From: Nocardioides aromaticivorans
GTDB taxonomy: Bacteria; Actinomycetota; Actinomycetes; Propionibacteriales; Nocardioidaceae
Length of the DNA stretch: 64,000 nucleotides
Reading direction: 5' to 3'
NCBI RefSeq assembly: GCF_013408525.1
Contig: NZ_JACBZM010000001.1
Location: 2,914,001-2,978,000, forward strand
The position numbers were made by a program, and so were the translations under genes. Below the pieces are notes generated by a model. That model made no database searches, was not told where the DNA came from, and saw only the letters and a list, made by a program, of their open reading frames with translations. Below, one piece after another: positions 21,840 to 38,384 of the stretch; within the stretch, counting starts at the first letter, position 1; every line of letters begins with the position of its first letter.

Positions 21840-23858
21840 TCAGGACAGCTCGAAGAACTGCGCCTTGTCGCCGGTCACCAGCACGACCCGCCCGTCGGGG
21901 AGGGGGACCGCGCGCACGTCGTCCACGTCGGCGCCGTACTCCACCTGGACGAGGCGCTGCTGCAGCTTCCCGTCGACGAGGTGGACGACCGAGACGAAGC
22001 CGACCCGGGTGCGGGCGGACCTATCCAGCACCGTGATCACCGTGCGCTCGTCGGGCAGCCAGGTGAACGCGCGCGGGTCGGCGCCGGCGAGCGCCCGGAA
22101 GGACCGGCCGTAGTCGTGCACGTCGAGCCGCTTCACCCTGCTCACGTCGCGGACGTCGAAGAGCCCGATCTGCGCGCCCCAGCCCCCCTTGCCGTCGGGA
22201 CCCTCGCCGAGGCCGATCATCCGCCAGGAGCCGAGCGGGTGGAGGTAGGTCGAGAAGCCGGGCACCTTCAGCTTGCCGAGCAGCCGCGGCTTCGCCGTGT
22301 CGCTCAGGTCGATCGCGTACATCGGGTCGACCCTGCGGAAGGTCACCAGTACCGCGAGGTCGTCGAACCACCGCACCGACTTGATGTCCTCGTTGACGCC
22401 GAGCCGGTCGAGCCGGCCGTGCTCGACCAGCTCCTTGCCCTGGCGCTGCAGGGTGATGACGGAGTTGAAGCTGCCGGTCTCGCTCGTCGGCCCGACCGCG
22501 ACCCGCAGCACCCCGTCGGCCTCGTCGACCGACCAGCGGTCGGCGATCGAACCCTCGACCTCGCCGGAGGCGACGTGGGTGGCGGCGGTGCCCTCGAGCT
22601 CGAATTCGAAGAGGTACGACGTCCCGCTGGCCGGGCCGCGCACGACTGGTGAGCCGACGCCGTCGAGGCAGCGGATGCAGTCGCCCCACCCGCCACCGCC
22701 GGCCTGGGTGGCGAGGTAGAGGTGGTCGACCGACTCGTAGGCGATGCCGGTGTGCCCGGCGAGGCCGATCGCGTCCAGCTTGGCCGGGCTGCCGGCGTCG
22801 AAGCCGACGATGCTGGTGGTGTCCAGCAGCAGGTCGTCGGAGGGGACCGCGACGTTGGTGCAGTCGAGGAGCTGCTTGCTGTCGCCGTCGGCGGTGACGG
22901 TGGGCAGCCAGTCCTCGATGGTGGTCTTCGCGACGAGCTCGCGGTTCCTCTTCAGCGCCTCCCGCTCGGTCACCTTGCCGCGCGGCTCCACGAAGTCGAG
23001 CTGCGGCAGGCCGGACTCGAGCACGACCCGGATCGCCTCGCCGTGCTGGCGCGCGGACATCAGCCCCGCGTCGTAGGTGACGTCGTCGGTGACCTCGGGC
23101 GCCGACGGGTCGGCGAGGGAGACGGTGAGGACGCGGGTGCCCGGGTCCTCGTCGTCGGACTCGTCGTCGCGACCGACCGCCACGACGGTGTCACCGGACA
23201 GCAGCACCTCGGCGTCCTCGACGCCGGTCAGCGGGATCGAGGAGAGCTTCTCGGTGGAGGAGCCGGAGACGTCGTAGGTCACCAGGTCGTCGTCGCGGAC
23301 GGTGACGAGGAGCCTGCCGTCGGTCTTGACGGAGTCGGGCTCGTCGACGCCGGCCTCCTGCACGTTGGTGCCGGTGTCGCTGTTGGTGACGCGGTCGGTG
23401 CGGGGCGCACGGTCGTTCGCGCTCTTGGTGAAGTCCTCAACGCTGGCCTGCTCGCTGAGGGGCATCGTGCGCCTCGCGCCCTCCAGCAGCCCGTCGTAGC
23501 CGTCGGCGTAGTAGTAGGGCCCGCCGCCCCACCCCCACGCGGACACCAGCTCCTTCCCGCGCTTCCGGTACGTCGCCAGCAGGTCGTCGCAGGACTTCGC
23601 CGGCTCGAGGTCGGCCTGGAAGGCGACGCGCTGGGGCAGCGCCTGGATCCCGCCGGGGCTGCCCGGACCGGACCCGCCGTCGACGAGCGTCCCGGCGACG
23701 AACGCGCCGGCCAGGCCGGTGACCACGCCGGCGGTCAGCAGCGGGCGGAGCAGCACCCGCCGGCGGCGGCGCTGCTCGCCGGCCGCGGCGGCGAGGATCG
23801 AGGTGACCGGCGCCTTGCCGGTCGGGTAGTCGTCCCAGAGGTTCTCGAGATCGGTCAT
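21840..23858 (-). CDS. Membrane-anchored beta-propeller protein, partner of SigE-type sigma factor
   Basis: A 672-residue protein. Residues 1-34 are cytosolic (DLENLWDDYPTG, poly-Arg), residues about 38-60 form one transmembrane helix, and the rest is extracytoplasmic and fits the secreted beta-propeller family PF09826 (VQEAGVDEPDSVKTDGR, GLAGHTGIAYES, MYAIDLSD, STYLHPLGSWRMIGLG). It overlaps the sigma gene by ATGA. Inference: as with other TM proteins co-encoded with ECF sigmas, it may act as an anti-sigma or sensor; no zinc-finger anti-sigma motif was seen. Confidence 0.82.
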   Translation of the reverse strand: MTDLENLWDDYPTGKAPVTSILAAAAGEQRRRRRVLLRPLLTAGVVTGLAGAFVAGTLVDGGSGPGSPGGIQALPQRVAFQADLEPAKSCDDLLATYRKRGKELVSAWGWGGGPYYYADGYDGLLEGARRTMPLSEQASVEDFTKSANDRAPRTDRVTNSDTGTNVQEAGVDEPDSVKTDGRLLVTVRDDDLVTYDVSGSSTEKLSSIPLTGVEDAEVLLSGDTVVAVGRDDESDDEDPGTRVLTVSLADPSAPEVTDDVTYDAGLMSARQHGEAIRVVLESGLPQLDFVEPRGKVTEREALKRNRELVAKTTIEDWLPTVTADGDSKQLLDCTNVAVPSDDLLLDTTSIVGFDAGSPAKLDAIGLAGHTGIAYESVDHLYLATQAGGGGWGDCIRCLDGVGSPVVRGPASGTSYLFEFELEGTAATHVASGEVEGSIADRWSVDEADGVLRVAVGPTSETGSFNSVITLQRQGKELVEHGRLDRLGVNEDIKSVRWFDDLAVLVTFRRVDPMYAIDLSDTAKPRLLGKLKVPGFSTYLHPLGSWRMIGLGEGPDGKGGWGAQIGLFDVRDVSRVKRLDVHDYGRSFRALAGADPRAFTWLPDERTVITVLDRSARTRVGFVSVVHLVDGKLQQRLVQVEYGADVDDVRAVPLPDGRVVLVTGDKAQFFELS

Positions 23859-24385
23859 TTCGCGTCTCCAGCGATGTCGAGGAGGTGGTCGTTGGCAGCG
23901 AGGTGGGCCAGCGCCCGGGAGAGCCGGCTCTTGACCGTCCCGGGCGGTACGCCGAGCGCCTCGGCGGTCTGCTTCTCGCTGAGCTGGACGAAGTAGCGGA
24001 GCACCACGACGTCCCGGTTCGGCTTGGTCAGCCCGCCGAGCGCCCGGTGCACGGCGTCCGCGATCGCGACCCGCTCGGCCGCGTCGGAGCCGCCGGGGTC
24101 GGTCGCGGGCCGGTCGAGGGCCGCCTGGTCGTCGTACTGGCGGTCCTTCCACCACCGCGTGCGGCGGGTGTCGCGCAGGCAGTTGAGGAGCATCCGGTAG
24201 ACGTACGCGTCGCGGTTGTCGGCGCTGCTGACCCGGTCCCAGCCGGTGTAGCAGCGCACCAGCGTCGTCTGCGCCAGGTCCTCGGCCTCGTCGGGCCGGG
24301 CGCCGAGGAAGACGGCCGCGCGCACCAGCGACGGCCAGCTCTGCTCGACGTAGTCGGCGTAGGCCGACTCGTTGTGTGGTTCCAC
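23855..24385 (-). CDS. SigE-family ECF RNA polymerase sigma-70 factor
   Basis: A 176-residue sigma factor of the actinobacterial SigE family. Region 2 has ARPDEAEDLAQTTLVRCYTGW and AYVYRMLLNCLRDTRR; region 4 has GLTKPNRDVVVLRYFVQLSEKQTAEALGVPPGTVKSRL. GTG at 24385 (VEPHNESAYADYV) has a GGAG eight bases upstream and gives the usual family length. An upstream in-frame ATG would add a low-complexity extension. It probably directs transcription of its own operon with the beta-propeller gene. Confidence 0.88.
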   Translation of the reverse strand: MEPHNESAYADYVEQSWPSLVRAAVFLGARPDEAEDLAQTTLVRCYTGWDRVSSADNRDAYVYRMLLNCLRDTRRTRWWKDRQYDDQAALDRPATDPGGSDAAERVAIADAVHRALGGLTKPNRDVVVLRYFVQLSEKQTAEALGVPPGTVKSRLSRALAHLAANDHLLDIAGDAK

Positions 24386-24518
24386 GGGCGCTCCGGTTCT
24401 CCTGGCTGCTTGCTGAAGGTACGACGGGGGCAGCCCGGTCCGGGGTTCCATCGGGTCCCGAGACGGTCGCTGGGCGACCTCCTCGACCACCGGCGGGGGC
24501 GGATGGAAGAGTGACGCC

Positions 24519-25706
24519 ATGGCTGACAGCTCCCGCCCGTACGACGTCGTCCTCTTCGGCGCCACCGGCTTCACCGGCGGCCTCACCGCCGACTACCTCG
24601 CCTCCCAGGGAGGTGACCTGCGGTGGGCGATCGCCGGACGCAACGAGCAGAAGCTGGAGGGCGTGCGCGACCGGCTCGCCGCGACCAACCCGGCGCTGAA
24701 GGACCTGCCGATCCTGGTCGCCGACGCCGAGGACACCGACGCGCTCGCCGAGGTCGTGGCGACCACGAAGGTCGTCGCGACGACGGTCGGGCCCTACATC
24801 GAGTACGGCGGCCCGCTGGTCGCCGCGTGCGCCGTCGCCGGCACCGACTACGTCGACCTGACCGGGGAGCCGGAGTTCGTCGACCGCACCTACGTCGAGC
24901 ACAACGCCGCGGCGGAGGGCTCCGGCGCGCGGCTGGTCCACTGCTGCGGCTTCGACTCGATCCCGCACGACCTCGGCGCCTACTTCACCATCAAGGAGCT
25001 GGCCAAGGAGGTCGGCGGCGAGATCACCGCCCCGGTCACGATGCGCGGCGTCGTCCGCTCGAGGGCCGGCTTCTCCGGCGGCACCTTCCACTCGGCGCTG
25101 ACGGCCTTCTCGCGGGCCCGCCAGATGAAGGAGGCGTCCGGCGCGCGCCGCCGGATGGAGCCGCGTCCCGAGGGCCGCCGGTCCCGGGCGTCGGTGGGCA
25201 GGCCGAGCCGCGACCACGACCTCGGGTACTGGCTGCTGCCGCTGCCGACCATCGACCCGTTCATCGTCGCGCGCAGCGGGGCCGCCCTGGCGTCGTACGG
25301 GCCGGCGTTCACCTATTCCCACTACGCCGGCACGAAGACCCTGCGCTACGCCGTCGGCGGCGCCGTCGGCGTGAGCGGCCTGACCGTCGCCTCGCAGGTG
25401 CCGCCGCTGCGCAACGCCCTGCTGAAGCGGGTCCCGCAGGGCGAGGGGCCCTCGGAGAGCCGCCGCGAGAAGTCGTGGTTCACCGTCGACTTCGTCGCCG
25501 AGTCGGCCGGCAGGAAGGTCCACACCCGGGTCTCCGGCGGCGACCCGGGCTACACCGAGACCGCCAAGATGCTGGCCGAGTCGGCCGTCTGCCTCGCCCT
25601 CGACGAGAACCCCAACGTCTCCGGCCAGGTGACCACCGCGACCGCGATGGGCGACGCGCTGCTGGCGCGGCTGCAGCGGGCGGGCATCTCGTTCGAGCGC
25701 CGTTGA
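24519..25706 (+). CDS. Saccharopine-dehydrogenase-like / trans-acting enoyl reductase family
   Basis: A 395-residue NAD(P)-dependent oxidoreductase. The N-terminal Rossmann fold has VVLFGATGFTGGLTADYLA and AIAGRNEQKL; the centre has VGPYIEYGGPLVAACA, GTDYVDLTGEPEF and CCGFDSIPHDLG. The order matches actinobacterial proteins related to Rv2449c and to the trans enoyl reductase of phenolic glycolipid synthesis (Rv2953). True lysine metabolism is unlikely. It is monocistronic, diverging from the sigma operon. The substrate may be an acyl lipid, which is inferred. Confidence 0.85.
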   Translation: MADSSRPYDVVLFGATGFTGGLTADYLASQGGDLRWAIAGRNEQKLEGVRDRLAATNPALKDLPILVADAEDTDALAEVVATTKVVATTVGPYIEYGGPLVAACAVAGTDYVDLTGEPEFVDRTYVEHNAAAEGSGARLVHCCGFDSIPHDLGAYFTIKELAKEVGGEITAPVTMRGVVRSRAGFSGGTFHSALTAFSRARQMKEASGARRRMEPRPEGRRSRASVGRPSRDHDLGYWLLPLPTIDPFIVARSGAALASYGPAFTYSHYAGTKTLRYAVGGAVGVSGLTVASQVPPLRNALLKRVPQGEGPSESRREKSWFTVDFVAESAGRKVHTRVSGGDPGYTETAKMLAESAVCLALDENPNVSGQVTTATAMGDALLARLQRAGISFERR

Positions 25707-25729
25707 CCTCGGTCTTCCCCGAGGAGACG

Positions 25730-25763
25730 ACGACGGCCGCCCGGGTGACCGGGCGGCCGTCGT
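25730..25763. terminator. GC-rich hairpin terminator between convergent genes
   Basis: Perfect 15-bp arms (25730-25744 and 25749-25763) flank a GTGA tetraloop. It lies 24 bp after the reductase stop and 49 bp before the opposing secreted-protein stop. It is a typical actinobacterial terminator without a T-run. Confidence 0.8.
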
Positions 25764-25811
25764 ACCTGCGATGGGCCGTGGCCCCACTCCACGACCCACG
25801 TGCGGGGGAGG

Positions 25812-26477
25812 TCAGCGGCGCGCGAGCCGCTGGCGGGCGAACGCCGCGCCCGCCGCGGTGACGACACCGCCACCGGCGAGCACCCACATGAGCTCCAGGC
25901 CCTGATCGTCCTCGGTCGTCGAGACGGCGCCGGCGTCGATCCGGGTCGGGACCGGGACCTCGTCGGCGATCAGGCCGCCGCTGTTGAAGACGTCGAGGTC
26001 CTCCTTGTCGCCCTTGTCGCCCTTGTCGTCGCCGCCCTTGCCGCCCTTGTCGGCGGGCTCATCCTCGGGCTCGTCGCCCGGCTCCGGGTTGGCGATGTCG
26101 CCGGGGCCGTCGGGGCCGCCGTCCTCGGGGTTGGCGATGTCGCCGGGGCCGTGGGGGTTCGGCTCGGGGTCCTCCTCGCCGTTCGGGCCGTCCTTGTCGT
26201 CGGGACCGTTCGGGTTCGGGTCGTCGCCCGGCTGGGGCTGCTCGAAGTCGCCGGGGCCCTGCGGCTCCGGGGCCGGCGGGTCGGGCTGCGGCTCCGGCTC
26301 CGGGTTGGCGATGTCGCCGGGACCCTTCGGGCCGTCCGGGTTCGCGATGACGATCGGGCCGTCGGGGTCGAAGCCGTCGGCGTGGGCGACGCCGGCGCCG
26401 AACGCGACCGCGCTCACGGCGATCGGGGTGGCGACCAGCAGGCGGAGGGCGGTGCGGGCGGTGCGGTTGCGGTTCAT
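25812..26477 (-). CDS. Secreted acidic Pro/Gly-rich repeat protein with C-terminal anchor
   Basis: A 221-residue exported protein. The signal peptide ends at about residue 33 (GVAHA-DG). The middle is Pro/Gly/Asp/Glu-rich with repeats of GPGDIANPE (three exact, plus IANPDGPKGP). The last 25 residues form a hydrophobic helix ending in Arg-Gln-Arg-Leu-Ala-Arg-Arg, as in cell-wall sorting signals, but no LPXTG motif precedes it. Its promoter has the AAGGT-N15-CTCSTAC motif shared with the nearby sortase and ECF fusion genes. The function is unknown; a surface or wall structural role is inferred. Confidence 0.8.
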   Translation of the reverse strand: MNRNRTARTALRLLVATPIAVSAVAFGAGVAHADGFDPDGPIVIANPDGPKGPGDIANPEPEPQPDPPAPEPQGPGDFEQPQPGDDPNPNGPDDKDGPNGEEDPEPNPHGPGDIANPEDGGPDGPGDIANPEPGDEPEDEPADKGGKGGDDKGDKGDKEDLDVFNSGGLIADEVPVPTRIDAGAVSTTEDDQGLELMWVLAGGGVVTAAGAAFARQRLARR

Positions 26478-26521
26478 GACTACTCCCTGGTTTCGGTGGG
26501 CCGTGGTGGCCTTCGTTGGGA

Positions 26522-26548
26522 GTAGGAGCAGCGGGTGCTCGGGACCTT
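26522..26548 (-). promoter_or_regulatory. ECF-type promoter of the secreted protein gene
   Basis: On the minus strand AAGGT (complement of 26544-26548), 15 nt, then CTCCTAC (complement of 26522-26528). This leaves a 5' UTR of about 35-40 nt before the ATG at 26477. Geometry is identical to the motifs at 28151-28177 and 29911-29937. Confidence 0.7.
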
Positions 26549-26598
26549 GCAGATTTTCTGGCGAGTTTTTCGGGATCCTTCCGGGGCTCCGCGCGGGA

Positions 26599-27501
26599 TC
26601 AGCCGACCCGGCGCAGCACGCAGACGAGCAACCGGTCGCCCTGCAGCTCGTGCTCGGTGTGGCTCTCCAGCGCGAACCAGTGGTCGCGGAACGCCCGGCG
26701 CACCTGCTCCGGCGTCCGGTAGTCCTCGTGCCGCCGTGCGAATCCCTGCGGCAGGTCCGGGCGCGCCGGACCGCCGGTGTCGGCGCCGAAGGTGGCGGTG
26801 ACCAGCCGGCCGCCGGGGCGCAGGACCCGCGCCCACTCGTCGAAGGCGAGCTCGGGCTCGGCAAGCAGGTGCAGGGCGGTCACGCAGGTCATGAGGTCCA
26901 CGGACTCCCCGGCGACCGGCAGGGCGGCGGCGTCCGCCTGCACGAACTGGGCCCGCGGCAGCGCCGTCCGCGCGACCGCGAGCATGCCGGGGGAGAGGTC
27001 GACGCCGACCAGCCGTGCCTCGGGACGGCGCGTCGCGATCGCGCGCAGCACGAGCCCGGTCCCGGTCGCCACGTCGACCACGAGCCCGTCCCCGAGGTCG
27101 GGGGCCCGCTCGGCGACGAGGGCGGCGAGGTCGCGGTGCATCCCGCTGGCGTCGTACGTCGCGGCGCGGGCGTCGTAGTGCGCGGCGACCGCCTGCTGCT
27201 GGGCTTGCGCCTGTCGGAGGTCGGTGAGGAGCGAGAGGTGGAGTTCGCGCTCCTGGAGGACCGCGGCGCGCTGCCGGCCGGAAGTCTGGCGGAACTGCAG
27301 GTCCGCGACGGCCCTCGCCTGAACGATGTCGAAGCCGAAGTGGTCGCGCAAGGCGGCGTTCGCGCCATCCTCGTCAGCGCTGTCCAGAACCAGCTGCAGC
27401 ACCGCGACCGGGTCCTCGAGAGCGGTCGCGAGCGCGGAGATGACGTGGAGTCGATCCTCGACCTGGCGGATCCGCTCGGCGAGCGGCGGCGGTCCGTACA
27501 T
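26599..27501 (-). CDS. GyrA-like coiled-coil domain fused to a class I methyltransferase
   Basis: A 300-residue protein. Residues about 10-100 (ERIRQVEDRLHVISALATAL, then NAALRDHFGFDIVQARAVAD) resemble the C-gate coiled-coil of GyrA/ParC (RxHILxGLxxAL, FGLSEIQAQAILDMxLxxL). Residues about 105-300 are a SAM methyltransferase (VVDVATGTGLVLRAIA, LVGVDLSPGMLAVA, ALPVAGESVDLMTC, EWARVLRPGGRLV). No topoisomerase catalytic Tyr domain is present. It sits between the secreted protein and sortase genes, 27 bp after the sortase stop and probably cotranscribed. The substrate is unknown. Confidence 0.8.
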   Translation of the reverse strand: MYGPPPLAERIRQVEDRLHVISALATALEDPVAVLQLVLDSADEDGANAALRDHFGFDIVQARAVADLQFRQTSGRQRAAVLQERELHLSLLTDLRQAQAQQQAVAAHYDARAATYDASGMHRDLAALVAERAPDLGDGLVVDVATGTGLVLRAIATRRPEARLVGVDLSPGMLAVARTALPRAQFVQADAAALPVAGESVDLMTCVTALHLLAEPELAFDEWARVLRPGGRLVTATFGADTGGPARPDLPQGFARRHEDYRTPEQVRRAFRDHWFALESHTEHELQGDRLLVCVLRRVG

Positions 27502-27528
27502 GCGCCCGACCCTCCCATGTCAGGACGG

Positions 27529-28146
27529 TCATGTCCCGAGAAGGTGTGCGAAGACGATCGTGTTGTCCGGATAGCCACTGGCCGTCCGCGTGCCGCCGCA
27601 GGTGATCAGCCGCAGCAGCACGTCGTCGCCGACGGGCCAGATCCGGTCGTAGGGGAGGCGCTCCTTCGGGACGTCCTCGACGGCGTCGACGACGAAGGTC
27701 GCCACCGCGCCCGGGCGGTGCACCCGGATCGTGTCCCCGGGCGTGAGCCGGGCGAGGTCCCAGAAGACGTCGGGCCCGTCCGGGCCGTGCACGTGCGCGA
27801 CGACGACGGCGCCGCCCGGCTCACCGGGACGGGGGCCGGGGGAGTACCAGGCCGCCTTCCCGAAGTCCGGGGTGTCGAGCGAGCCGTCGGCCTTCAGCCC
27901 GCGGGCGGTCAACCGCTCGTCGACGCCGATCGCGGGCACCTCGATGCGGCTCGGTGCCGCGACCCGTTGTGCCGGCACTGGTGCGGCCGGGACGGGCGGT
28001 GCCGGTGGCAGCGCCAGCGCCGGAGGAGGTACGACGACCGCCGGCTCGGGCTCCGGACCGCGGAGCCCCAGCAACAGGCCGGCCACGAGGGCCAGCACGC
28101 CGGCGGCGAGGGCGAGGTCGGTGATCAGTCGGCGGGTGCGCTCCAT
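27529..28146 (-). CDS. Class E/F-type sortase
   Basis: A 205-residue membrane sortase. An N-terminal helix (about 8-28) and a Pro/Ala/Val-rich linker precede a compact sortase barrel. The catalytic triad candidates are His118 or His120 in VVAHVHG, Cys183 in LITCGG and Arg187. It would cleave a sorting motif and attach the protein to the wall or another amine. ATG 28146 begins only about 5 nt after the -10 CTCCTAC, implying a leaderless mRNA. The likely client is the secreted protein of the same regulon, though that lacks LPXTG. Confidence 0.88.
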   Translation of the reverse strand: MERTRRLITDLALAAGVLALVAGLLLGLRGPEPEPAVVVPPPALALPPAPPVPAAPVPAQRVAAPSRIEVPAIGVDERLTARGLKADGSLDTPDFGKAAWYSPGPRPGEPGGAVVVAHVHGPDGPDVFWDLARLTPGDTIRVHRPGAVATFVVDAVEDVPKERLPYDRIWPVGDDVLLRLITCGGTRTASGYPDNTIVFAHLLGT

Positions 28147-28150
28147 GGGG

Positions 28151-28177
28151 GTAGGAGCGCGGCGGCGCCGGGACCTT
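28151..28177 (-). promoter_or_regulatory. ECF-type promoter of the sortase gene (leaderless)
   Basis: Minus-strand AAGGT (complement of 28173-28177), 15 nt, CTCCTAC (complement of 28151-28157). The flanking TGCAAGGTCCCG is identical to that upstream of the secreted protein gene. The start codon at 28146 falls at the expected transcription start. Confidence 0.7.
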
Positions 28178-28189
28178 GCACTTTCCGGG

Positions 28190-29887
28190 TCAGCCGGGGC
28201 AGGGGTCGAAGGTGAAGGTGCGCGACCTGCTCGACCGCAGGCCCGCCTTGTCGGTCGCGGTGAAGGTGACCTTCACGTTGCCGCCGACCGCGACCGGGAT
28301 GGTCACCCGCCAGCGGCCGCCGGACAGCGTCGCCGTGGCCTGGCCGTCGGCGGAGCCGGACCACGTGGCCTGGACCGACTGCACACCGGTCCCGTCGCTG
28401 ACGGCGGCGGAGACGGGGATGCTGCAGCTGGTCGCACCGGCGGTGATGGTGCCGATCACCGGCGCCCGGTTGACGGTCAGGCTCACGGCGACCAGCACCG
28501 TCCCACCCGACCAGGTGACCGCGACCTGGCCGCGGTGCGTCCCCTCGGCGAGCCCCGAGCGGCTCGCGGTGATCCGCAGCCCGGTGGCGTCACCGGCGGC
28601 GACGGAGCCGCCCCCGGTGGACACCGACAGCCAGCCGACCCGTGGCCGCGCGGTGAAGTCGACCGGGCTGCCGCCGACGTTGGACAGGCGCACGGTGTCG
28701 CTGGAGCGCCCGGTGCCGAGGTCGATCGAGCGGGTGGAGACGCGCAGGTCGCCGGGCGCGGCGACGGTGGCGTCGGTGCTGGCGGCGGTGCTGCTGGGAG
28801 CGGCCGCGGACGAGGTCGCCGTCGCGGACGAGGTGGGCGCGGTCGTCGTACCCGCGGGGGTGGAGGAGGGGGACGCCGGGGTCGACGAGGCCGAGGTCGC
28901 GGTGTCGACGGCGACGAGGTCGTCCTCGCCCTGCGGCCAGAGCACGGCGAGCAGGCCGACCCCTGCGAGCAGGAGCAGGACGGCGGCGATCGCCGCCAGC
29001 GCCCGACGGCGGCGCGCGCCGCCGTCGTCCGTACCGGCGCCTCCTGCCGGCGGCGCGCCACCGGGCGTCGGCTGGTCCACGTAGAACGCCACCAGCCGCT
29101 CGTCGCCGAGGACCCGGTCGCGCAGCGACGGCGGGGCGGCGAAGGCCGGGACGCCGGCGAAGAGGGCCAGCGGGCTGACCATCAGCTTGCGGCGGGTCTC
29201 GCAGACCTCGCAGCCGTCGATGTGCCGCGCGACCCGCTTGCGGATGAGCGGCGAGAAGGTGCCGTCCCAGTCCTTCAACAGCGCCGCGAGCTCCTCGCAG
29301 TCGTCGCTGCCCCTGCGCGCGATGAGCAGCGCGCCCAGGGCGCGCTCGACCTGGTCACGCGCGCGGCTCAGCATGACGTAGGCGTTGGCCGGGGTGACGT
29401 CCATCGCCGCCGCCAGCTCGGCGCCCTCGAGCCCCTGCCGCAGGTGCAGGTCGATCAGCGCGCGGTCGCGGTCGTTGAGACCCTCGACCGCGGCCCACAC
29501 CAGCTCGCGCAGCTCGGCCTGGACCGCGTCGTCCGCAACCTGGTCCTCGGGTCCCCGTCCCTGGTCAGGCATGGCTTCCAGCCATTCGTCGTCGTGCGCC
29601 TCGCGCCCCCGCGCGCGCAGCGTGCGCAGGCACTCGTTGCGGACCACGGCGTACAGCCACGGCCGCAGCCGCGACGGGTCGCGCAGCTGGCCGACCTTCT
29701 CGGCCATCACGACGAAGGAGTCCGCGACGCAGTCCTGGGCCTCGACCGGGTTGCGCAGCATCGAGAACGCGAAGTCGTGCAGCCGGTCGGCGTACTTCTC
29801 GTAGACGGAGGCGAAGGCCTGCCGGTCCCCGGCGAGCACGCCGGCAACCAGGGACGCGTCGTCGGGCAACGCGTCCGAGGAGCTCAT
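28190..29887 (-). CDS. ECF sigma factor fused to zinc finger, TM helix and extracellular domains
   Basis: A 565-residue single polypeptide. Sigma region 2 (about 12-92, DRQAFASVYEKYADRLHDFA, DCVADSFVVMAEKV) and region 4 (about 127-188, LNDRDRALIDLHLRQGLEG) come first. A zinc-finger-like HIDGCEVC follows at about 220-228, then one TM helix (about 290-312), a Ser/Thr/Ala/Pro linker, a BACON/choice-of-anchor-like domain and an Ig-like C-terminal domain with two Cys. Sigma, anti-sigma and sensor are thus in one chain, as in ECF groups with C-terminal membrane extensions. The promoter suggests autoregulation. Confidence 0.9.
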   Translation of the reverse strand: MSSSDALPDDASLVAGVLAGDRQAFASVYEKYADRLHDFAFSMLRNPVEAQDCVADSFVVMAEKVGQLRDPSRLRPWLYAVVRNECLRTLRARGREAHDDEWLEAMPDQGRGPEDQVADDAVQAELRELVWAAVEGLNDRDRALIDLHLRQGLEGAELAAAMDVTPANAYVMLSRARDQVERALGALLIARRGSDDCEELAALLKDWDGTFSPLIRKRVARHIDGCEVCETRRKLMVSPLALFAGVPAFAAPPSLRDRVLGDERLVAFYVDQPTPGGAPPAGGAGTDDGGARRRRALAAIAAVLLLLAGVGLLAVLWPQGEDDLVAVDTATSASSTPASPSSTPAGTTTAPTSSATATSSAAAPSSTAASTDATVAAPGDLRVSTRSIDLGTGRSSDTVRLSNVGGSPVDFTARPRVGWLSVSTGGGSVAAGDATGLRITASRSGLAEGTHRGQVAVTWSGGTVLVAVSLTVNRAPVIGTITAGATSCSIPVSAAVSDGTGVQSVQATWSGSADGQATATLSGGRWRVTIPVAVGGNVKVTFTATDKAGLRSSRSRTFTFDPCPG

Positions 29888-29910
29888 GGCGAGATCGTAG
29901 GGACACACGA

Positions 29911-29937
29911 GTACGAGCGCCCACGACTTCGCACCTT
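29911..29937 (-). promoter_or_regulatory. ECF-type promoter of the sigma-fusion gene
   Basis: Minus-strand AAGGT (complement of 29933-29937), 15 nt, CTCGTAC (complement of 29911-29917), 24 bp before the ATG at 29887. It has the same spacing as the sortase and secreted-protein promoters. It adjoins a KstR-like palindrome at 29953-29966 that serves the divergent gene. Confidence 0.65.
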
Positions 29938-29952
29938 TCACTTTTCCAGAAG

Positions 29953-29966
29953 TAGAACGAGTTCTA
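29953..29966. promoter_or_regulatory. KstR-type operator box
   Basis: TAGAAC-GA-GTTCTA fits the published KstR consensus TNNAACNNGTTNNA exactly. It ends 10 bp before the ATG of the SnoaL-like gene at 29977. An identical 14-mer lies at 38371-38384. Confidence 0.7.
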
Positions 29967-29976
29967 GTGTTCGGCC

Positions 29977-30432
29977 ATGGACAGCACCCGTACCCCGGCC
30001 GAGGCGGTCCGTGGCCTCTGGCGCACGCTCTCGGACCGCGACTGGACCGGCATCGCCGACTGGGTCACCGACGACTGCCTCTACGTCGACATGCCCGTCG
30101 GTCCCGCCCTCGCCGCGCGCGGGCCGGTCGACATCGTCAAGCGGCTCCAGGTCGGCCTGCGCGACCTGGCGGCGTACGAGAACCACGAGGGGCTGCTCGT
30201 CGCCGACGGCGACGTCGTCATGTACGAGCACTCCGAGACGTGGACCTTCGGGACCGGCGAGGTCGTCGAGCTGCCGTTCGTGACCGTGCACCGGGTGCGC
30301 GAGGGCCGGGTGTGCCTGTGGAAGGACTACTGGGACTTCGGAGGCGTCGCGAACAGCGCTCCGCCGGACTGGCTGGAGAGCTTGCAGGCCGCCGACATCT
30401 CCTGGGTGTACGACGCCACCGGGCAGGTCTGA
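29977..30432 (+). CDS. SnoaL/NTF2-like protein (limonene-epoxide-hydrolase type)
   Basis: A 151-residue NTF2-fold protein: AVRGLWRTLSDRDWTGIADWVTDD, then PVGPALAARGPVDIVKRL, a WTFGTGEVVELPFVTVH strand and LWKDYWDFGG. The family includes small hydrolases, isomerases and steroid-handling proteins such as ketosteroid isomerases. The KstR-like box in its promoter suggests a sterol- or lipid-linked role. It is monocistronic with a hairpin terminator after it. The exact reaction is unknown. Confidence 0.78.
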   Translation: MDSTRTPAEAVRGLWRTLSDRDWTGIADWVTDDCLYVDMPVGPALAARGPVDIVKRLQVGLRDLAAYENHEGLLVADGDVVMYEHSETWTFGTGEVVELPFVTVHRVREGRVCLWKDYWDFGGVANSAPPDWLESLQAADISWVYDATGQV

Positions 30433-30438
30433 GGCGTC

Positions 30439-30458
30439 GTCGGCCGCCCCCGGCCGAC
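30439..30458 (+). terminator. Hairpin terminator after the SnoaL-like gene
   Basis: GTCGGCCG-CCCC-CGGCCGAC forms an 8-bp GC stem 7 bp after the stop codon. There is no T-run. Confidence 0.6.
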
Positions 30459-30549
30459 CGGGGGCTGGATGGTGCCGACAACGAATCGGCCGCAATCCTG
30501 TGGGATCTGTTGTGTCGGCGGGAGGCCGCTGACTGGCACTGTCGGGAAC

Positions 30550-38370: not shown

Positions 38371-38384
38371 TAGAACGAGTTCTA
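38371..38384. promoter_or_regulatory. KstR-type operator box in the divergent promoter
   Basis: TAGAAC-GA-GTTCTA, extended to CTAG ends at 38370-38385, matches the KstR consensus TNNAACNNGTTNNA and is identical to the box at 29953. It lies between the LLM oxidoreductase gene and the TetR/P450 operon, so it may control both. Confidence 0.75.

Follow-up and report, generated by a model that had tools for sequence, protein, structure and literature searches.

Three genes on the minus strand of the DNA studied here stand behind what seems to be one promoter. The window, a 64,000-nucleotide (nt) stretch of the Nocardioides aromaticivorans chromosome (contig NZ_JACBZM010000001.1, positions 2,914,001 to 2,978,000), carries a gene for an extracytoplasmic function (ECF) sigma factor fused to a membrane segment, a sortase gene and a gene for a secreted acidic protein. 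An earlier note had reported the motif AAGGT-N15-CTCSTAC with identical spacing ahead of all three. Which factor reads this motif, and what do the genes under it do together? The sequence comparisons make it likely that the fused sigma factor is itself the reader, a self-amplifying and membrane-tethered regulator that drives a dedicated surface-anchoring programme. The computed support covers the conservation of the promoter, the gene content, and the co-occurrence of motif, sigma factor, sortase and sorting signal.

Promoter motif in the window and the source genome

A scan of the window places AAGGT-N15-CTCSTAC exactly at 26522-26548, 28151-28177 and 29911-29937, all on the minus strand, as had been claimed. 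The extended promoters are 26522-26551 for the secreted-protein gene and 28151-28180 for the sortase gene, both reading TGCAAGGT-N15-CTCCTAC, and 29911-29940 for the sigma gene, reading TGAAAGGT-N15-CTCGTAC with GGAAAAG upstream. From the surroundings of the sites the fuller element is GAAAA-nn-TGCAAGGT-N15-CTCCTAC, and TGCAAGGTCCCG is indeed common to two sites, as the earlier note said. With up to two mismatches the window holds 12 motif matches, compared with 2.93 on average and at most 7 in 100 shuffles. The whole-genome scan that the note had suggested gives the exact pattern seven times in 5.26 Mb and the reversed pattern once. The seven comprise the three sites above, two sites before distant secreted-protein genes (621906 on the plus strand and 1611884 on the minus strand) and two matches in coding sequence (1065973 on the minus strand and window position 30222).

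The last of these, 30222-30248 on the minus strand, is a fourth exact match in the window but is judged not to be a promoter. It lies antisense inside the SnoaL/LEH-like open reading frame (ORF) 29977-30432 and is not counted because the coding sequence of this ORF explains it; near-identical matches in two related loci (L046 and L047) lie inside orthologous ORFs of 88% and 84% identity.

When the genome is scanned with TGCAAGGT-N14-GCTCCTACC at up to two mismatches, six sites are found. Five lie 4 to 53 nt upstream of the ATG of a sortase or secreted-protein gene and the sixth is the coding site 1065973. Three mismatches admit 19 additional sites, mostly coding noise, which brings the total to 25, while the reversed pattern has 33. 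Because the site of the sigma gene itself needs three mismatches, the source genome alone is no proof of autoregulation. A relaxed match at 3552074 was set aside as probable chance, since the ORF after it has no signal peptide. The sortase transcript is probably leaderless, because the ATG of the gene (28146) comes just 4 nt past the -10 box. One other genome (G006) shows an equal 4-nt gap; promoter-to-ATG distances differ among the relatives, and a conserved leaderless start was dropped for this reason. Rfam gives no match on 25500-30500.

Conservation in related loci

The sigma factor has at least 1053 relatives at E ≤ 1e-20 among 7992 candidates scored, of which the best 120 of 1053 are listed. 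Thirty-one were aligned and led to 75 loci in named genomes. The analysis covers the first 49 (L045-L093), all actinobacterial, and leaves aside the 26 with weaker matches (L094-L119). The exact motif occurs in them 22 times on the strand of the cluster, never on the other strand and once in the reversed sequences; two of the 22 are SnoaL coding matches. A wider pattern, TG[ACT]AAG-N16..19-CTCnnAC, was picked after inspection of the data, with the identical pattern used for the reversed control. It gives 68 matches, all on the gene strand, and none reversed in 1.49 Mb with both strands counted. These matches stand ahead of sortase genes (20 of 23), secreted-protein genes (14 of 16) and sigma genes (26 of 47, with two more at a contig edge). 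Eight are left over, and seven of them lie ahead of ORFs for tailed secreted proteins, which the homology step had overlooked or counted once (in L049, L053, L068, L075, L078, L079 and L080), while the eighth (L061, 4530) stays unassigned. In Nocardioides, Aeromicrobium and their relatives the motif is kept ahead of the orthologues of each of the three genes, which was one of the checks proposed in the note.

At the commonest spacing (54 matches), A occupies the positions 3, 4, 5 and 6 bases upstream in 51, 42, 39 and 28 matches, respectively. The middle C and T of CTCCTAC are kept in 43 and 40 and a subsequent C in 41; the spacer is mostly uninformative. Promoters of one locus are also more alike over their first 11 bases than regrouped promoters are (8.42 versus 7.65; 0 of 5000 regroupings; 20 loci, 57 sites), with base composition and species relatedness not removed from this comparison.

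The sigma sites of Nocardioides-type loci differ from CTCCTAC in 11 of 12 cases, while 16 of 17 target sites retain it, and the window follows the same rule with CTCGTAC at the sigma gene versus CTCCTAC at both targets. This departure in the -10 box would keep the feedback below the expression of the targets. A general rule of a weaker sigma promoter was narrowed to Nocardioides-type loci, because several Aeromicrobium-type loci are opposite, with CTCCTAC at the sigma gene and CTCCCAC at the sortase gene. The promoter extends beyond the order Propionibacteriales: in Actinophytocola (Pseudonocardiales), TGTAAGG-N17-CTC[CA]TAC is found ahead of a tailed protein.

Co-occurrence of motif and sigma factor

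In 120 genomes of the family the strict motif has 14 sites in seven genomes, with four sites in the source genome (G000), and the reversed control has one. Thirteen of the 14 lie ahead of sigma, sortase, tailed-protein, propeller or RTX genes, and one is in coding sequence. All seven genomes have the sigma factor, the six besides the source genome as a full-length orthologue (E from 6.8e-274 to 4.3e-123). It is found in none of the six motif-free genomes tested, where only distant ECF matches occur (best E 1.4e-13 to 5.5e-8). The Fisher p value for this association is 0.0006, relatedness not removed.

A relaxed pattern, TGYAAGR-N16-CTCCYAC, has 47 sites in 19 genomes of the same sample. Ten are ahead of sigma genes, 7 of sortase genes, 11 of tailed secreted-protein genes, 7 of propeller genes and 2 of RTX genes, 8 lie elsewhere and 2 (G118:C3:439340 and G078:C1:3598321) are unassigned; the assignment is our own reading and partly uses site identity with L058, L060, L064 and L087. 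The relaxed sites cluster, 14 genomes having two to six each, and the control never exceeds two per genome. The sigma factor is found in 13 of these 14 genomes, and for the remaining one, G089, its presence relies on a site identical to that of L058; G069, which has one relaxed site, carries it too. The G genomes and the named loci share identical sites (for example G006 and L046, G084 and L087), and therefore the two data sets overlap. The link between the motif and this sigma factor, which had been put forward as an inference, is backed by the conservation at orthologues, by the co-occurrence and by the likeness of promoters within loci.

Domain structure of the fused sigma factor

The sigma gene occupies 28190-29887 on the minus strand and has 565 codons; its start is set at ATG 29887 instead of the mechanical ORF start at 29941. 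ECF sigma regions 2 and 4 are both found (Sigma70_r2, 46.5 bits, cut-off 24; Sigma70_r4_2, 27.2 bits, cut-off 25.7), and the protein matches the sigma70-ECF model TIGR02937 with 76.9 bits. Residues 197-229 (29201-29299, minus strand) make a zinc-finger-like anti-sigma segment, C-x24-H-x3-C-x2-C, in which C197, H222, C226 and C229 are invariant in the 31 relatives. A single membrane span follows after RRRR at about residues 297-315 (28943-28999, minus strand; hydrophobicity maximum 2.83). A Ser/Thr/Ala-rich linker then leads to two outside beta-sandwich (BACON/Ig-like) domains at about residues 381-563 (28199-28747, minus strand), for which the model pLDDT is mostly above 85 and in which cysteines 488 and 563 are invariant. 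Elsewhere the model is poor (mean pLDDT 66.6, pTM 0.38). Foldseek retrieves general Ig-like folds with it, and the BACON_2 and Big_9 matches of the outside part are below the Pfam cut-offs. Pfam at E ≤ 1 gives no carbohydrate-binding module in this part.

Sortase, secreted protein and candidate sorting signal

The sortase gene (27529-28146, minus strand, 205 codons) matches Pfam Sortase with 65.7 bits (cut-off 26.6). Class F is by far the best of the sortase class models, the next being class E with 22.8 bits, and the enzyme is called class F-like because its score is under the class F cut-off. The active site residues His118 and Cys183 are conserved in the alignment, the cysteine of LITC being present in all 32 rows shown. 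The sortase sequence has no match among solved structures at E ≤ 0.001.

The secreted protein (25812-26477, minus strand, 221 codons) is described from its composition and alignment. It has a signal-peptide-like start, GPGDI repeats, and a tail made of PTRIDAG, a C-terminal span and the basic RQRLARR. The 141 residues from 35 to 175 include 40 acidic, 7 basic and 32 proline residues. In the candidate sorting motif PTRIDAG, residues 177-183 (25929-25949, minus strand), P177, R179, A182 and G183 are invariant in 28 relatives, the alignment having taken 28 of 60. LPXTG is absent from the tail and TIGR01167 has no match at E ≤ 10. The NCBIfam model NF058571 (GVDTG) matches 12 of the 28 relatives at E ≤ 10, the best with 0.0023, and R-I-D-A-G looks like a local form of G-V-D-T-G.

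The tail follows the sortase. P-x-R-[IVL]-x-[AT]-G with a span and a basic tail is found in 20 of the 49 loci, and all 20 have the sortase by tblastn. Counted by sortase presence, this is 20 of 23 loci versus 0 of 26 sortase-free ones (Fisher p 6e-11, relatedness not removed); several of the 26 are short contigs or distant relatives. The sortase loci with no signal in the stretch examined are L052, L058 and L067. In Actinophytocola loci with a sortase the tails read PNRIETG or PNRIDTG (L075 and L080), whereas the sortase-free L078 and L079 keep the promoter and the tailed secreted protein and have lost the sorting motif. Plasmids show a comparable arrangement. Among 17 plasmid records with a sortase match, 8 regions were fetched and 5 are annotated. 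In each of these five a tailed protein is encoded immediately upstream of the sortase; its motif is P-x-G-G-[VI]-x-[AT]-G in four regions and PSGAPDTG in the other. One of the five, a Cryobacterium class F partner, passes the GVDTG model with 34.4 bits. The secreted protein thus carries a probable sortase sorting signal, and we regard tails of the type P-x-R-[IV]-x-[AT]-G as candidate signals for class F sortases.

Two further candidates were rejected. VPTRIHAG at genome position 3143559 is a chance occurrence, inside a 714-residue open frame that we read as sensor-kinase-like and that has no tail. The idea that PTRID of the substrate copies PSRIE of the sortase was dropped, since several Aeromicrobium-type sortases have no PSRIE. 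As a separate observation, genes for a free-standing RNA polymerase sigma factor and for a span-bearing protein come after a class F sortase gene on a Streptomyces fungicidicus plasmid (L174), an arrangement that resembles the sigma-sortase pairing in unfused form.

Predicted targets beyond the cluster

Elsewhere in the source genome the motif precedes genes for two lectin/sialidase-like propeller proteins and one RTX-repeat protein. The regulon was described in the note as local; the cluster genes do have the motif, but the regulon is not confined to them. The propeller genes are in tandem (G000:C1:616000-628000), with a promoter before each (619893 and 621903). Their family has 32 relatives at E ≤ 1e-10; its first member has no match in Pfam, and others match BNR weakly. 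The model of a propeller protein (pTM 0.80) combines a propeller with an Ig-like part and a sandwich at the C-terminal end. Its best match by E-value is a Micromonospora sialidase (8.5e-14) with a TM-score of only about 0.33, and propeller lectins match the propeller model with target TM-scores of 0.63-0.69. The propeller proteins lack a sorting tail at the C terminus. In the RTX protein, PF00353 matches four stretches (98.3 bits), and a relative under the same type of promoter is found in another genus (G109). Judged by their sequences, the common theme of the targets is a surface or matrix programme.

Proposed mechanism and alternative explanations

In the mechanism that we propose, the fused ECF sigma factor itself would recognize the motif sites as promoters. 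The zinc-finger-like segment and the single span of the protein would hold its sigma domain at the membrane, with the two Ig-like domains outside. A signal from outside probably leads to cleavage and frees the sigma part. The freed sigma factor would transcribe its own gene, giving positive feedback, together with the gene of the class F-like sortase and those of a group of secreted proteins. This group would comprise the GPGDI-repeat proteins with C-terminal R-[IV]-D-[AT]-G, the lectin/sialidase-like propellers and, in some species, the RTX-repeat protein. The sortase may then join the RIDAG-bearing proteins to the cell wall. Autoregulation and a surface-assembly module, both proposed earlier, survive the comparison, as the motif lies ahead of sigma, sortase and secreted-protein genes in relatives. 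A more specific scheme is doubtful as a whole. It would be a self-contained switch in which the Ig-like domains sense the state of the surface (for instance unanchored substrate or a sugar) and the cell then makes, under a single type of promoter, more of the sigma factor, a class F sortase devoted to the module and the substrates of this enzyme, which would bear P-x-R-[IV]-[DE]-[AT]-G as a new signal. Lectin-like propellers and RTX proteins would be made as well and form a surface layer, and anchoring of the substrate would close the loop.

Other explanations of the same data differ in weight. That the recurrence of the motif reflects chance or base composition is scarcely credible. Two of the seven exact genome matches are coding sequence and the relaxed scans show background, but the count of 68 against 0 reversed, the single strand throughout and the A-rich stretch upstream, outside the pattern, argue against such an origin. 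A different sigma factor or an activator might read the motif, with the fused sigma gene as one more target of its regulon, and the nine further ECF matches of the source genome offer candidates. We consider this improbable, since the fused sigma factor is the sole full-length copy there and the one full-length match that tracks the motif (7/7 with, 0/6 without), and its own gene carries the motif, as passages of one study describe as common for autoregulated ECF sigma genes (PMC5826349). Somewhat less remote, and still unlikely, is a RIDAG tail and span that serve as a mere membrane anchor or as the cleavage site of another protease, the sortase acting elsewhere. The tail without LPXTG and the GVDTG score of the secreted protein (7.3 bits, cut-off 29) favor it, as does one locus (L124, from G053) that has a tailed protein under the strict promoter, with VLAPSANEDGG before the span and no P-x-R-[IV]-x-[AT]-G. 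The confinement of the signal to sortase loci, the Actinophytocola tails that keep or lose the motif with the enzyme, and the P-x-G-G-[VI]-x-[AT]-G of tailed proteins beside other class F sortases speak for a sorting signal.

The self-amplifying sigma factor with its surface-anchoring programme remains the preferred reading, and besides L124 several observations weigh against it. The zinc-finger-like segment scores 15.8 bits with Pfam zf-HC2, under the cut-off of 22.2, and the sortase 138.7 bits with the class F model NF033748, under the cut-off of 166. By the pattern used, 21 of 47 sigma loci have no motif; they are mostly from distant groups (Mycobacterium, Acidimicrobiia and others) and also include L056, L058, L063, L066, L067 and L070. 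The association of sigma factor and strict motif was drawn from 13 genomes. The total of 47 relaxed sites in 120 genomes is near the 42 of the reversed control, by our own count.

Neighbouring features

A methyltransferase gene (26599-27501, minus strand; Methyltransf_11, 85.6 bits) lies between the sortase and secreted-protein genes. It is possibly transcribed with the sortase gene and probably a passenger; tblastn matches it in 3 of the 49 loci, two of which cover residues 6-115 or 8-96 only. Its residues 10-105 match a GyrA model (7.1e-9). In L049 (at about 10464) the GyrA-related stretch forms an open frame of its own, 108 codons long, between the sortase and secreted-protein genes, and a related stretch occurs in L048 at about 10552.

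The palindrome TAGAACGAGTTCTA is found exactly twice in the window, with 0 expected in 100 shuffles. The copy at 29953-29966 is between the sigma promoter and the SnoaL-like gene, and the one at 38371-38384 is just ahead of an ORF that we read from its translation as TetR-type regulator-like, followed by an ORF read as P450-like. We take the palindrome to resemble a KstR-type operator. A second ECF sigma gene at 23855-24586 on the minus strand is SigE-family-like (TIGR02983, 134.9 bits, cut-off 141.55), and L053 has a similar gene near its own cluster.

Comparison with known systems

If the preferred reading is right, it supplies one family of class F sortases with a regulator and a defined promoter, with a few targets that recur across several genera, and with a candidate sorting signal. 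It would also predict a concrete regulon for a fused ECF sigma factor, and point to a likely function and likely substrates for wall-anchoring enzymes of a class that is little understood. Literature searches on class F sortases and on ECF48, ECF52 and ECF53, in the parts of the sources available, returned no description of the present module, which is not proof of absence.

By its described domain build the fused sigma factor is most likely kin of ECF48, ECF52 and ECF53, groups with a fused ECF build for which activation through proteolysis is expected in the review passages (PMC8999054). As described there, ECF48 and ECF53 have a C-terminal fusion with a zinc finger and one to two spans, comparable to the zinc-finger-like segment and single span here; those passages describe no regulon for them, whereas one is predicted here. 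The studied ECF52 case is SCO4117 of Streptomyces coelicolor (PMC5826349). According to passages of that paper, it likewise joins an ECF sigma factor to a zinc finger (zinc-finger-like here), a span and an outside part, positive autoregulation is proposed for it, and it controls the surface-related development genes rdl and chp. The outside part of SCO4117 is proline-rich with a carbohydrate-binding module, in contrast to the two BACON/Ig-like domains here, and since no such module was found the present sigma factor is not filed as ECF52. The motif proposed for SCO4117, CSGYN-17bp-SRHA, also differs from TGCAAGGT-N15-CTCCTAC, and the word sortase is not found in the text of the paper (PMC5826349).

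On the sortase side, passages of a 2026 paper call the physiological roles of class F sortases unknown and describe two neighbouring partners with no recognizable pentapeptide (PMC13251363). The partners of the class F sortases AMIS_11010 and AMIS_36440 have a signal peptide, a span and a basic tail, like the secreted protein here. In that work, deleting all four class F genes had no phenotypic effect (PMC13251363), while here sortase and partner share the promoter type of the sigma gene. In the GVDTG_CTERM family (NF058571) a short motif that ends in [TA]-G is followed by a span and then a basic tail, and R-I-D-A-G aligns with G-V-D-T-G, although the secreted protein stays below its cut-off, unlike the Cryobacterium partner. 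The glycan-sensing sigma-I/anti-sigma pairs of Clostridium thermocellum, as described in passages of PMC10766802, resemble the proposed mechanism in having an outside sensing domain, a tether, release by cleavage and surface machinery as the target. There, sigma and anti-sigma are separate proteins and the targets are cellulosome genes (PMC10766802), whereas here the two functions would be fused and the target would be a sortase module.

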